A stretch of 64,000 nucleotides of DNA. It comes from Henriciella sp. GTDB taxonomy: Bacteria > Pseudomonadota > Alphaproteobacteria > Caulobacterales > Hyphomonadaceae. Positions 2,868 to 9,336 of this stretch are shown piece after piece; position 1 is the first letter of the stretch, and every line of letters begins with the position of its first letter. The translations under genes were made by a program, and so were the position numbers. The notes below the pieces were generated by a model, which was given only the letters and a program-made list of their open reading frames with translations, did not search any database and was not told the DNA's origin. The stretch lies in NCBI GenBank assembly GCA_017642885.1, contig JAEPOM010000003.1, forward strand, positions 62,001-126,000. The letters are read 5' to 3'.

Positions 2868-3158
2868 TTAGTCTTCGAACGGCGGGTACATTTCTGCGCC
2901 GTGAAGAACGCGCAAGATGTACAGGCTTTCTGGGCTTAAGATGGCATACACCACAATGTACTTTGTCCCGGGCACAACGAGTTCGCGAGTATCGAGAACT
3001 CGACCTTCTTTTCCAATGAGCGGAAATGTTTCGAGCATTCTGATCGAAGTCGCGATGGCTGAAAGCTGCTTGTGTGATGCAATTGCATTCCGCGGCTCAA
3101 GATAATCTTTGAGCTGGGTAAGATCGGTTTTGGCAGTGGGTGTAAAATAGACGTTCAC
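2868..3158 (-). CDS. type II toxin-antitoxin system toxin, RelE/ParE family
   Basis: 96 aa; ParE-like MNVYFTPTAKTDLTQLKDYLEPRN...VVPGTKYIVVYAI...ILRVLHGAEMYP; GTG start. Confidence 0.8.
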   Translation of the reverse strand: MNVYFTPTAKTDLTQLKDYLEPRNAIASHKQLSAIATSIRMLETFPLIGKEGRVLDTRELVVPGTKYIVVYAILSPESLYILRVLHGAEMYPPFED

Positions 3159-3328
3159 AGATCGAGGTCTTTGAGGACATCTTTCATAGGAGCACAGGAC
3201 TCGGGGTTTTCCTGGGCTTCTTTCAAACCACGCTCAACTTGTTCTTTAAACCATTCATCATGGCCCGCAACAGGTACTGTTCCCGCGGGCAATTCTGGGC
3301 TTTCATGATCTTTCAAAGTCTCGCTCAT
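3155..3328 (-). CDS. putative cognate antitoxin (57 aa)
   Basis: Not in ORF track (short). Reverse complement reads MSETLKDHESPELPAGTVPVAGHDEWFKEQVERGLKEAQENPESCAPMKDVLKDLDL, overlapping the toxin start by 4 nt. Confidence 0.7.
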   Translation of the reverse strand: MSETLKDHESPELPAGTVPVAGHDEWFKEQVERGLKEAQENPESCAPMKDVLKDLDL

Positions 3329-3815: not shown

Positions 3816-4409
3816 CTATCCGCTTTCGATCTTGATCCCATTTCGACTGCAAATCTGGATCAATCTTCGCTCGAAAGGATCTGGGGATAGAGTGTTTATA
3901 AGAATGTTTCTATTAGTGTCGGACTCTTGTGTCGTGGCCTGATTTCTGCGGCTCACATCCCCAAAAGACTTGTCAGATCGCAGCGACGCTTGCTTCTTAC
4001 TCTGGGAGAAAATGGCGGCCTTGCACAGCACGATGCGCAAGCCAATGACATAGCCCATTCGGTTTGTGACTTTGCGAAAGTATAAGTATCCCTCCTCCGT
4101 AGCATCTCGCAAATAGCGTTGCACCTGCCGTGATGATCGCCCTAGGTGCTTGCCGATGATGCCAAGCGTCGTATCAAGCGGCCGCCCGCCCCCACTCCAC
4201 CCAGCAAGCAAAGCAATCATGCGCAGCGTTCCGGGCGCGATACGTGGGTCCATCACGAGAGACTGCGTGATTGGGAGAACAAATTTCCATCCGCTTTCAG
4301 GGCGTTCGAGGCTCTTGCGCCGCGGGCCCCGCCTCGCCAGGTCGTCGAAGTTTGAAGGCACGTAATATGGCAATGAGGCCATTGCAAAGGACAAGTGTTT
4401 CATAGGCAT
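3816..4409 (-). CDS. helix-turn-helix protein, plasmid replication-type
   Basis: 197 aa; winged-helix-like TLGIIGKHLGRSSRQVQRYLRDATEEGYLYFRK. Confidence 0.5.
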   Translation of the reverse strand: MPMKHLSFAMASLPYYVPSNFDDLARRGPRRKSLERPESGWKFVLPITQSLVMDPRIAPGTLRMIALLAGWSGGGRPLDTTLGIIGKHLGRSSRQVQRYLRDATEEGYLYFRKVTNRMGYVIGLRIVLCKAAIFSQSKKQASLRSDKSFGDVSRRNQATTQESDTNRNILINTLSPDPFERRLIQICSRNGIKIESG

Positions 4410-4681: not shown

Positions 4682-5173
4682 TTGAGTTTAATGGGAACGC
4701 CCAAGTACTTCTTATCAATGACAAAAGCGGCATCCTTTGCCGGTGTGAACCGTTCGACAATTCAGCGGCAGATTAAAGCTGGCAAGCTCTCGGCTCAAAG
4801 AGATGACAACAATCAATGGCGAATCGACCCTGCCGAACTGTCGCGCGTTTACCCGGATGCCGGGAAGAAAGAGCCTGTTGCAAATGATGATGCAACGCAG
4901 CGCCAAACCGATGCGTCGCAACATTCCGCAACACCGGAATCAAAGGAAATCATCGCAACATTGCGCACCATGGTTGAAACGCTCGAGCGCAACAATCGAC
5001 GAGAGGTAGAACACCTCAGTGAGACGATTGAGGACTTGCGAGATCGGCTGGACAAAGAAGCTGCTCAAAGCCGCGTATTGACTGCAATGCTGACCGATCA
5101 GCGTGAACAAAAAGAAGAAACCCCCGAGCCAAAGCGTGGAGGCTTCTTCGGCCTATTCTCCGCATCAAACTAG
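4682..5173 (+). CDS. HTH DNA-binding protein with C-terminal coiled coil, plasmid-maintenance type
   Basis: MTKAASFAGVNRSTIQRQIKAGKLSAQRDDNNQWRIDPAEL (MerR/excisionase-like HTH), coiled coil, GGFFGLF tail. Confidence 0.6.
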   Translation: MSLMGTPKYFLSMTKAASFAGVNRSTIQRQIKAGKLSAQRDDNNQWRIDPAELSRVYPDAGKKEPVANDDATQRQTDASQHSATPESKEIIATLRTMVETLERNNRREVEHLSETIEDLRDRLDKEAAQSRVLTAMLTDQREQKEETPEPKRGGFFGLFSASN

Positions 5174-5462: not shown

Positions 5463-6647
5463 CTATTGAGCTTCAAACGAAATTATGTGTTCGGTTCGCA
5501 TCCGCTTGGACAAAGAATTTTCCTTGTTCAAGCTAATAGGCATGTACCGCCTGTTATTGGGTATCTCACGCACTTGCTCATCAACGAGTTTCAAACCAAC
5601 GCTTCGTGCGCAAGATTTCAAAAACTCACTATTTCGAACGTGAGTGTCCTTAATGTTGGAATTCCCGATTACATAGCAAGCATTTGCGCCAGACCGAAGA
5701 ACCCGCGCAGATTCAGCTGTGAGTGCTTTTAGGTCTATGTAGTATCGGAACAGCATCTGTGTTTGCCGACTCGTAAGCTCATTGAGCCCGAGTGCATCAT
5801 GGAGTTCATCAAATTCCTCCGAATCTCGAATGTGCATCGATTTCTCGGATCCGATCGACGTCGCCCGAATCTCGCGCAATTCACGTATGGTATAACCCAT
5901 CCAAACCAGAGACATCTTGTGCCCCCGCATGTAGTCAATCGCATTCAAGTAAGGCGGAGATGTGATTATAGCATCCACCGAGCCGGCCTCTAGCCTCGAG
6001 AGTTGTCGGGCGTCGCCTTTGTAGACCTTGGCATTGGTAAGAATTTCGTGCGGCTTTAGGGCTGATAACATTTGCTCAATCGAGCGATGAAACTCTTCAA
6101 CGATGTCAAAATCGTTCTGTAGGATCGTCCTGTGTGGACGGCTATGAGCGGTGTCTCTAGCTAGCGACGCTTTCGGCTCTTTTGTAACTATAAGCCGAGA
6201 AACCGCAACTTTCATAAAGTCGAGAATCGTTCTGCTTGTTGTAAAGGGGGTCGCGATTAGGTGTAGCGCGAAAGCTCGCAATTGATGTCGCTGTTTTTCG
6301 GCGAACCAATAGTCGATGAACTTCGAAGTCTCCGGGTCAGAATCTATCCAATCCAATGTGATAGATTCCCCTCGCTCACAACTATTCTCAACTTTGTGCA
6401 GCAATTCGTTCGCGCGTTTCCGAATGAGGTCAGGGTTCACGTTTGTAGCGCCGACTTTAGAAATGAGTTTTGCCAACGGGTCGAGGTCGAATCCTATAGG
6501 TTTCATTCCTTTTCGGGAAGCTTGAGATAAAACCATTCCGGATCCAGACATCGGATCGAGCACGACAGAGTCAGGGGCTAACTCCGCAACATGCGCTAGT
6601 GCTATTTCGGGGGCCATCCGAGCCGGAAAGGGGTGTATGTGCCTCAT
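5463..6647 (-). CDS. DNA methyltransferase (N4/N6 amino-MTase)
   Basis: SAM motif I VLDPMSGSGMVLSQA; catalytic motif IV IITSPPYLNAIDYMRGHKMSLVWMGY. Confidence 0.85.
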   Translation of the reverse strand: MRHIHPFPARMAPEIALAHVAELAPDSVVLDPMSGSGMVLSQASRKGMKPIGFDLDPLAKLISKVGATNVNPDLIRKRANELLHKVENSCERGESITLDWIDSDPETSKFIDYWFAEKQRHQLRAFALHLIATPFTTSRTILDFMKVAVSRLIVTKEPKASLARDTAHSRPHRTILQNDFDIVEEFHRSIEQMLSALKPHEILTNAKVYKGDARQLSRLEAGSVDAIITSPPYLNAIDYMRGHKMSLVWMGYTIRELREIRATSIGSEKSMHIRDSEEFDELHDALGLNELTSRQTQMLFRYYIDLKALTAESARVLRSGANACYVIGNSNIKDTHVRNSEFLKSCARSVGLKLVDEQVREIPNNRRYMPISLNKENSLSKRMRTEHIISFEAQ

Positions 6648-7111
6648 GGGGAGACCTGTATCCTGCTTCGCATTGGGTGCAACGCCTCTGCAAGACTATT
6701 TCTTGATATGCGTTTTTCCAAAACCCCATCTCTTCCTTTGATTTGATACATCTTATTATGCCGACGTCTGACGGTTACAGATTCTTGCGCTTCAAAGTTT
6801 TCGTCCAGCACTGCGCGAAAGTCTTGGTGTTTCAGTGCTACGATGCCATCTCGCCCGCATACAAAAATCATGATGCACTCTTTGTGTACTTCCGCCAAAA
6901 ATTGCTGGCGTTCTTGGTGCTCTTTGTGGAACGTGAATTTCCAAGGGCCGCGTCTCTGAGAGGAATACTTGATGTAAATTGGCAGGCGTTCATTCAACAG
7001 ATAAAATCCGGCGAAATCCTCATAAGCTTTTCGAATAGCTACAGAGCCGTCCCACCGATCAACAATGTAAGAAAACACCGCGCCAAAATATCTGGAAGTA
7101 TCGGTGATCAT
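6644..7111 (-). CDS. conserved-looking 155-aa protein of unknown function in Z1/MTase operon
   Basis: ATGA overlaps with both neighbours; compact alpha/beta composition LPIYIKYSSQRRGPWKFTF..IMIFVCGRDGIVALKHQDFRAVLD. Confidence 0.7.
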   Translation of the reverse strand: MITDTSRYFGAVFSYIVDRWDGSVAIRKAYEDFAGFYLLNERLPIYIKYSSQRRGPWKFTFHKEHQERQQFLAEVHKECIMIFVCGRDGIVALKHQDFRAVLDENFEAQESVTVRRRHNKMYQIKGRDGVLEKRISRNSLAEALHPMRSRIQVSP

Positions 7112-8979
7112 TGACGGTTTTGAATGAACTTAATCGAACCGCCGTTGATCTTATAGAACAATCGCGCCTGGCCATGTGGGTTACGAAACACCTTGAGATG
7201 GTGGCGAGCCATCGGCTTATCACCCCGCCGAAATTCATTGTTTGAGAAAATACCTTTCTTACGTCTCAGTGCTCTAACCTCAGTAGCGTCGTAATTTCCA
7301 AGCTTCGTTCCAAATTGACCCGGCTTGTGGAAGCAAATATCCGTACCTCTCAGCTGATCATCCTGCGAGAGATAATCGAACAAGTATTGGGGAAACTGAT
7401 TATTGTTCAACGCTTTTCGCAAGCCGTTCAATGTATCCTTATTTGATCGGCCATTTTGTTCGAACAGGTGGTCGACTTCGTCCGCGTTATAGTCAAATAT
7501 CCCAAAGGACATTTCTCCGCCTTCAAAATCCACCGAAGATTTGTCAATGGACGCCGCTGATGTGGGAGTGGTCTTGTGGTCTGACAGCCAAACCGGCGCA
7601 CCCGATCCGGATCTCATGGCTTGAAGTGCGAGCTTGTGAAACTCGAAACACTTACTCCAGTTTGCCATTAACTCGTCTGGAATCCAGAGCTGAAAAGCGT
7701 CTTTGTAAGCATTTCGGGCACCGAACATTCTCGCACGTTGAATATAGGTGTCTTGAGAGAATTTCCCCTTAACCGCGCGGGTAAAATACATAGACAGCAA
7801 ATTGTCGAATGTGACGCCCCGAGATATAATGTTGCCGCCGGCTCCGAACGAAAACAGGCTTGTCGGTTTCGCGATATCGGCAACAGCTCCACTATCCTTC
7901 TTGGAGTTGATTTCCACTATGTGGTGCTTGTTGATATTGCTCAAAACAAAGTGCATCACGGCATGAGCGTCGCCGTAACCAGCCGCTACCTTTTCAAGAC
8001 GTGACACTAGCCGTGGAAAACTCGGATGATCAGCTTTTGAGAGCACGCTAATCGAGTCTTGGATGACCTTCACGTCTTCACCGTGTTCGCTCTTCTTTCC
8101 GCTAGTATGGGCGAGCATGGTGAAGTTCTTTGAGTTGCCCAAATGATGTTGTTCGGCCACGCCGCACATAAAGTGCATAATCGCGTTTTGGAGTTCGGAC
8201 CGTTCGTTCCCTTCATCGCGAGCAAAAGTTCGAAGGCGATAAGGGACTTCCCCAGAAGACGGGAAAAAGTAATCCTGCCCGACATATGCTGGATGTGGCG
8301 GAAAATCGACCCACAGCTCGCTCACATTCTCGAAAGTGTTGTTCAGATTGAGCCTAGCGGGCGTCGCGGTGACGCCGATATACTGCCCATCTGCGCCCAG
8401 TAAAGTATGGATCAGCTCGTTAATTTTTGTTTTTTCGTCTTTATTTACCTTGGCATTTGGGGACGCGTAGTCCGCCTCGTCATCGATAATCATTAGACCA
8501 GTCTCATGCCTCAGAAGCTCAATTAGCTTTTCAAGATCCCGAGCGTTCTTTTTCGAAAAGATCACCCATTTCTTGCCCTTCAAGTCTGCCGCATTTTTCG
8601 GGAGCTCGCTGAATTGTTTAGGCGACGGGCTCAGCCCGGAGGCTCGAAAACGATCCAAGCTCTGCCGAAGTAAATCTACGCTATCAGTTAGCAAATTGAT
8701 GATTATGGTTGTGCCTTCATCCAGCAATCGTGCATTGAGCGCAATCATCATTTCGGTCTTACCGCTTTGCGGTTCACCAAAAATCACAAACGAACTTCCT
8801 TTGGCAGCTTGGAGATTTTTAACTGTCGATTCAACGGTAGTTTCTATCGACGATGTATCCATGCCGTTGTTTTTTAATCCGGTTATTCGGTCAACGTACT
8901 GATTATTTCCGACATTGCCGACTACACTGGCCCAGTCCATGCCTTCGCTCCAAATAACCCTTGCGACGCATATATTCAT
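7108..8979 (-). CDS. Z1 domain-containing helicase-like ATPase
   Basis: Walker A GEPQSGKTEMM; MIIDDEAD; IGVTATPARL; Z1 signature GGNIISRGVTFDNLLSMYFTRAVKGKFSQDTYIQRARMFG. Confidence 0.8.
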   Translation of the reverse strand: MNICVARVIWSEGMDWASVVGNVGNNQYVDRITGLKNNGMDTSSIETTVESTVKNLQAAKGSSFVIFGEPQSGKTEMMIALNARLLDEGTTIIINLLTDSVDLLRQSLDRFRASGLSPSPKQFSELPKNAADLKGKKWVIFSKKNARDLEKLIELLRHETGLMIIDDEADYASPNAKVNKDEKTKINELIHTLLGADGQYIGVTATPARLNLNNTFENVSELWVDFPPHPAYVGQDYFFPSSGEVPYRLRTFARDEGNERSELQNAIMHFMCGVAEQHHLGNSKNFTMLAHTSGKKSEHGEDVKVIQDSISVLSKADHPSFPRLVSRLEKVAAGYGDAHAVMHFVLSNINKHHIVEINSKKDSGAVADIAKPTSLFSFGAGGNIISRGVTFDNLLSMYFTRAVKGKFSQDTYIQRARMFGARNAYKDAFQLWIPDELMANWSKCFEFHKLALQAMRSGSGAPVWLSDHKTTPTSAASIDKSSVDFEGGEMSFGIFDYNADEVDHLFEQNGRSNKDTLNGLRKALNNNQFPQYLFDYLSQDDQLRGTDICFHKPGQFGTKLGNYDATEVRALRRKKGIFSNNEFRRGDKPMARHHLKVFRNPHGQARLFYKINGGSIKFIQNRQ

Positions 8980-9336
8980 ATTTCAAGCTTTACGGGAATA
9001 CGCTGACCGGCGGAAAGTTGTATTATTCGTCAGGTAGGATTTCTCCGTCTAATCAGCCTATCAGAATCTGAGTAAACACAGCTCAATCTAAGATCACAAC
9101 CTACACAGGGTTGCGACCTTGAGGTCTTTTTCGAGCGCCAGAGAGGATGTTAGAGCCATCAGTGTTCATGTCTTTTCTGGGCGCAAAAGATGACTCAAAA
9201 CAATGCTCTCCTCAACGGGCGAACAGGGGACTCGCTTGGTCGGTTAAATGCGAACATCAACCCTCGCGCATTGGATCGACATGCCCTCGACAATGGTTGA
9301 TAGCTAAGTAGTGAATCATTGGAATGTTTGTCAGCC

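Follow-up and report, generated by a model that had tools for sequence, protein, structure and literature searches.

The described systems closest to the locus studied here are CglI and NgoAVII, which comprise a methyltransferase (M), an R subunit and a DEAD-Z1 motor (N); N hydrolyses ATP, R is a PLD/B3 protein that cuts near GCCGC, and the systems act as an ATP-dependent, site-specific cleaving R2N2 complex (PMC4267653, PMC5737866). DEAD-Z1 is a distinct restriction motor, and its studied examples, CglI, NgoAVII and BceSIV, use a PLD nuclease. A Z1 motor carrying the DThhQxuRhFG motif, together with a methyltransferase, is also found in the MORC/paraMORC clusters (Iyer et al., 2008; PMC2292703), where this motif was defined for the helicase group, and in MZA, with MzaC; in these clusters a GHKL ATPase, AIPR, DUF4420 or E-D-ExK nuclease lies beside Z1. 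Type ISP LlaBIII and Type I HsdR are further SF2 restriction translocases.

In this study, a stretch of 64,000 nt of Henriciella sp. DNA (GCA_017642885.1, JAEPOM010000003.1, 62,001-126,000; hereafter the window, within which all coordinates count) was analysed, and three of its genes, N, R and M, were found to share with CglI and NgoAVII the set of methyltransferase, R subunit and DEAD-Z1 motor, with a homologous N (Table 1). We read this triplet, with a probability of about 0.6, as an ATP-dependent restriction-modification system that resembles CglI/NgoAVII but whose R subunit is different and very small. Restriction-like defence has a precedent in CglI/NgoAVII, which have the same gene content and a motor homologous to N. 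The new element is R; the N family seems to pair with a partner that is different from, and much smaller than, the PLD nuclease.

Table 1. Features of the N-R-M locus and its surroundings in the window.
Feature	Position	Strand	Description or evidence
N	7108-8979	-	623-aa DEAD/Z1 helicase-like motor; SF2 core and C-terminal domain
R	6644-7111	-	155 aa; predicted PD-(D/E)XK (Hjc-like) fold; candidate nuclease or recognition subunit
M	5463-6647	-	394-aa SPPY-type DNA amino-methyltransferase
N stop/R start overlap	7108-7111	-	ATGA read in sequence
R stop/M start overlap	6644-6647	-	ATGA read in sequence
Terminator-like hairpin directly 3' of M	5447-5418	-	12-pair stem and T-rich tail; pattern match
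Weak promoter-like site 5' of N	9051-9022	-	Pattern match
ParE/RelE-type toxin	2868-3158	-	96 aa; Pfam ParE_toxin 1.5e-16
57-aa ORF overlapping and preceding the toxin	3155-3328	-	Putative antitoxin
HTH_17/excisionase-like ORF	4682-5173	+	Coiled-coil-like tail; Pfam and PHROG profile matches
Orphan 197-aa ORF	3816-4409	-	Very weak HTH match alone

The preliminary description of the locus, made from the sequence alone, had reported three minus-strand genes joined by exact ATGA overlaps, and both junctions read accordingly (...GTCAATGATCACC... and ...CCCCATGAGGCAC...), with the three ORFs intact and zero internal stops. The terminator-like hairpin and the promoter-like site, patterns whose counts equalled and did not exceed the shuffle background, are consistent with N, R and M lying on one transcript. 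The toxin-antitoxin neighbour described earlier was recovered as a ParE-type toxin, of which the overlapping 57-aa ORF is likely the antitoxin, while the plasmid genes that had been placed nearby found slight support in the HTH_17/excisionase-like ORF, possibly a plasmid or phage remnant. When an empty site was sought in congeners by DNA comparison, the flanks gave no match.

N matched Pfam Z1 (E 2e-21; 77 bits at a cut-off of 25), SWI2_SNF2 (7e-7) and ResIII (1.5e-5), and Helicase_II in PADLOC (2.6e-45), in agreement with the Z1 helicase assigned earlier; among 14 control genomes, a Z1 match was obtained in C. glutamicum alone. In an hhalign comparison with its N. gonorrhoeae counterpart, from an M-R-N locus taken as NgoAVII on gene order and domains, N gave 99.8% probability (E 1.4e-29, 378 columns) over the DEAD and Z1 parts, and no significant match in its C-terminal part. 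Walker A GEPQSGKT, IDDEAD and QDTYIQRARMFG were invariant or nearly so among 76 N homologues, and DTYIQRARMFG is an instance of the DThhQxuRhFG motif. The AlphaFold2 (AF2) model of N (pLDDT 88) retrieved by Foldseek a list led by LlaBIII and including other SF2 enzymes such as EcoR124I HsdR; unlike in LlaBIII and HsdR, the functions here are on separate polypeptides, and no nuclease or methyltransferase domain was recognised in N. Its C-terminal domain is conserved at H593 (100%) and at H594, N600, R606 and Y609 (at least 90% each in the homologue alignment), and none of the reported top Foldseek matches, all SF2 helicases and restriction motors, names a function for it. An assignment of this domain as an HKD nuclease, prompted by its HHxK, was dropped, as Lys596 is conserved below 90%.

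M was likewise confirmed as the DNA methyltransferase of the preliminary description, with matches to Pfam N6_N4_Mtase (2.7e-6) and UPF0020 (1e-8), to many MTase_II models of PADLOC (best 3.9e-32) and to a PHROG DNA methyltransferase (3e-33). It carries the FxGxG-like motif I and (D/N/S)PP(Y/F) motif IV of amino-methyltransferases: in motif IV, TSPPY (229-233), S230, P232 and Y233 were kept in all 69 homologues and P231 in 68 of them, and in motif I, DPMSGSG (31-37), D31, G35 and G37 in 67-68 of 69. Motif I placed before motif IV together with SPPY favours N4-cytosine methylation, and since DPMSGSG precedes TSPPY, M probably methylates N4-cytosine, as judged from the motifs alone.

Compared with CglI and NgoAVII, the triplet has the DEAD-Z1 motor in common but neither of the other two protein families. 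Their R consists of PLD and B3, whereas the R here is an unrelated 155-aa protein of predicted PD-(D/E)XK fold; their M is a C5-cytosine methyltransferase, whereas that of the window is an SPPY amino-methyltransferase; and the N-R overlap and the gene order differ as well. Because the R and M families differ, the triplet falls outside CglI/NgoAVII, and by analogy, given the common motor and gene content, it probably works the same way. The likeness to Z1/MutL/AIPR clusters holds at the family level but is less close than that to CglI/NgoAVII. MutL, DUF4420 and AIPR partners, already stated to be absent, did not adjoin the triplet in the window neighbourhood by Pfam, nor was any partner domain of the MORC/MZA type matched among R and its 62 homologues, and N scored 39 bits against an MzaC cut-off of 1500. 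A stripped-down MZA or MORC cluster, with no GHKL-, AIPR- or DUF4420-like partner present, was thereby ruled out for the window. Of the earlier proposal of a stripped-down restriction system, the restriction-like character was supported, while the reduction was not, the gene content being that of CglI/NgoAVII (PMC4267653), systems that the proposal had left unmentioned.

Conservation of the triplet was evaluated in 81 loci, namely 80 from a genome-wide scan with the N profile (A2), picked by similarity to N and so favouring close relatives, and one IMG/VR contig (L095) from the R search. An R homologue adjoined N in 66 of them: in 63 it was the next gene downstream in the same orientation, and in three SAR11-related contigs it was divergent. 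A homologous M was present in 56 of the 59 R-bearing loci free of contig-end limits, usually adjoining N and R, though lying some kilobases away in a few loci; one of the three others (L035) carries a methyltransferase with reversed motifs, SPPF before DPFAGSG, probably a non-homologous replacement of M. These loci span at least a dozen phyla, the hosts including Alpha-, Beta- and Gammaproteobacteria, Myxococcota, Bacteroidota, Actinomycetota, Acidobacteriota, Planctomycetota, Verrucomicrobiota, Nitrospirota, candidate-phyla bacteria including Patescibacteria (CPR), and SAR11-related genomes. The orders N-R-M, M-N-R and N-R facing M were all seen. The 4-nt N/R overlap occurred in 12/12 measured relatives from the window's clade of N (15 rows, 100% SH-aLRT) and in 29/56 loci overall, and R ended in ATGA in 13 of the 20 loci where M follows R. 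These results indicated that the N-R-M triplet is a conserved unit, so that the condition under which the preliminary description would have been refuted, lack of the triplet in other genomes, did not hold.

N proteins lacking R formed one clade of 12 (100% support), 11 of which have M near N; the remaining R-less loci were that of Bartonella choladocola (L028) and loci truncated or limited by contig ends. In L028, a 433-nt R-sized gap (8860-9293) between intact N and M held broken frames alone, probably a decayed R with N and M kept. Some members of the R-lacking clade have MORC-like ATPases, or HerA-like and nuclease-like genes, beside N, which suggests that the motor can pair with other modules than R; a MORC-like GHKL ATPase was near N in 11/81 relatives. 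That N and M can apparently exist with other partners, as in this clade, counts against our reading of the triplet, and so does the loss or decay of R in L028.

R itself was searched in wider sets. It was present in 1/105 genomes of the window's family, and among 385 genomes of the class four matches were obtained, the window, two adjoining N and one spurious. A weak R match in genome G126 was thrown out for 5 in-frame stops. Two plasmid matches both adjoined a Z1 gene, and these R-started searches agree with the N-started neighbourhood result. In phage genomes no R was found by tblastn; on viral contigs, the A5 search gave nothing and the A1 search one full triplet. The dN/dS values of R were 0.005, 0.010, 0.091 and 0.099 in the four pairs with measurable, unsaturated dS, and from these low ratios R is taken to be under purifying selection. 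A chance ORF was ruled out by these values and by the homologues adjoining N.

The AF2 model of R, built with 63 family sequences, had a pLDDT of 94.4 and a pTM of 0.89. Foldseek against the PDB placed Archaeoglobus and Sulfolobus Hjc, RecU, splicing endonuclease and PvuII at the top, with probabilities up to 1.00 and TM 0.4-0.6 at modest E-values (best 2.8e-3), and a structure search of viral models agreed. The modelled elements (helix 4-19; strands 26-28, 36-39, 43-50 and 57-62; helix 63-76; strands 80-85 and 89-94) follow the alpha-beta-beta-beta-alpha-beta order of the PD-(D/E)XK core. Since R is predicted to fold like PD-(D/E)XK nucleases, it would be the best candidate for the effector, a role for which the middle gene had been proposed beforehand. 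Similar to archaeal Hjc and RecU Holliday junction resolvases, it has the predicted fold, the element order and an invariant Lys in the equivalent strand; unlike them, it has extra C-terminal strands and a helix beyond the core, and neither sequence similarity nor the conserved acidic catalytic residues. No R-Hjc link was seen by sequence profiles, so that R as a sequence homologue of Hjc was unsupported (the AfHjc query being a PDB chain), and R as a diverged PLD/B3 subunit was ruled out by hhalign (0.1% probability) and Foldseek.

Invariant in the R family (63 homologues) are G10, K48, W57, G89 and G126. When the elements were matched by hand in their order, Lys48 (63/63) took the catalytic-Lys position and was alone there, the acidic ligands of a D...(D/E)xK site not being recognisable in the 63 homologues: the helix-1 Glu maps to Gly10/Ala11, the strand-2 Asp to the aromatic 36-37, and the Glu of ExK to Tyr46. 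Conservation among polar residues extends to Glu/Asp4 (60/63), Arg53 (60/63), Asp88 (56/63) and Arg116 (62/63). With Lys48 kept and the usual acidic ligands not recognisable, R would be a nuclease whose site is rearranged, or else a pseudo-nuclease with a DNA-binding or activating role. In the second case the system would be the same, with a non-catalytic R serving DNA recognition or ATPase activation, and invading DNA would be destroyed by a host nuclease or by N itself, through translocation, roadblock or an unrecognised C-terminal activity. R is perhaps non-catalytic, since the classical metal site is not recognisable, and the conserved residues of the N C-terminal domain, the lack of a named function for this domain among the top fold matches, and the loss of R in one N clade fit such a scheme; however, Lys48, Asp88 and Glu/Asp4 also fit a rearranged active site, and N showed no nuclease domain. 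We consider a non-catalytic R unlikely, though the strongest of the alternatives.

With a cleaving R, the preferred reading is as follows. M would methylate host DNA at the target, probably to m4C; N and R, as in CglI/NgoAVII, are expected to form one complex, in which, at unmodified DNA, N would hydrolyse ATP and move along the duplex while the compact PD-(D/E)XK-fold R would cut it, possibly from an active site rearranged around Lys48 with Glu/Asp4, Asp88, Arg53 and Arg116. Site recognition and cleavage of this kind would give protection from phage or plasmids. A wider proposal, that such loci make up a widespread and hitherto undescribed ATP-dependent restriction class combining a DEAD-Z1 translocase, a minimal ~150-aa subunit of PD-(D/E)XK fold whose active site is rearranged or independent of metal, and interchangeable amino-methyltransferases, is tentative and stands somewhat below an even chance.

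The pairwise identities of N and R were correlated (rho 0.72 across 59 loci, against 0.14 for the best of 300 permutations), while over all loci rho was 0.13 for N-M and 0.04 for R-M. When the comparison was confined to the main M subfamily, N-M stood at 0.38 and R-M at 0.32; in the window's clade the two values were 0.80 and 0.61. Given the high N-R and low N-M and R-M correlations over all loci, N and R behave as one inherited module and M is swapped over longer times, a pattern expected if N and R carried out restriction and M modification. The patchy spread, the carriage on plasmids and an IMG/VR contig, the recombinase neighbours, the exchange of M and the homology of N together point to a mobile restriction-modification system. 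The same observations (the distribution being very patchy, and N being homologous to a restriction motor) argue against a module for epigenetic marking or DNA repair, with M marking the DNA and N with R remodelling or repairing it; a Hjc/RecU-like fold joined to a motor could suit junction processing, yet we judge such a module improbable. An ordinary, already typed Type II system with R merely unannotated, for which speak the PADLOC labels Helicase_II and MTase_II and the place of R in an unnamed PHROG, is very improbable, as R is covered by none of the curated models in Pfam, NCBIfam or PADLOC, and no system with an R of this family turned up in the papers searched (REBASE and subscription journals lay outside the scope).

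As stated earlier for the small middle protein, R and its homologues (63 sequences) matched no Pfam, NCBIfam or PADLOC family, and all 63 matched the unnamed phrog_28860, so the family has no curated name in the searched libraries apart from this PHROG. For this reason, current defence-finding tools would see a helicase and a methyltransferase alone at such loci. An R-paired motor would let one ask which motor parts talk to the nuclease, and an R-type partner how ~155 residues recognise and cut DNA.

Several loci differed in arrangement. On the mobilizable plasmids p057_D of Nostoc (L099) and plasmid5 of Calothrix (L100), R lies immediately upstream of a ~740-aa Z1 protein, with no annotated methyltransferase within 7 kb. 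The putative viral contig L095 carries a complete N-R-M with both ATGA overlaps and a serine recombinase alongside. In two Mesorhizobium loci (L029 and L030), R-less N and M are preceded by a HerA-like ATPase and a NurA-like gene and adjoin an AbiEi-like ORF, names given from reading the sequences; this arrangement may represent a further effector module for the Z1 motor. R-less N and M with a MORC-like GHKL ATPase were observed in L039, L056, L084 and Pseudoduganella (L075), the last also having a large downstream gene with PLD-like motifs.
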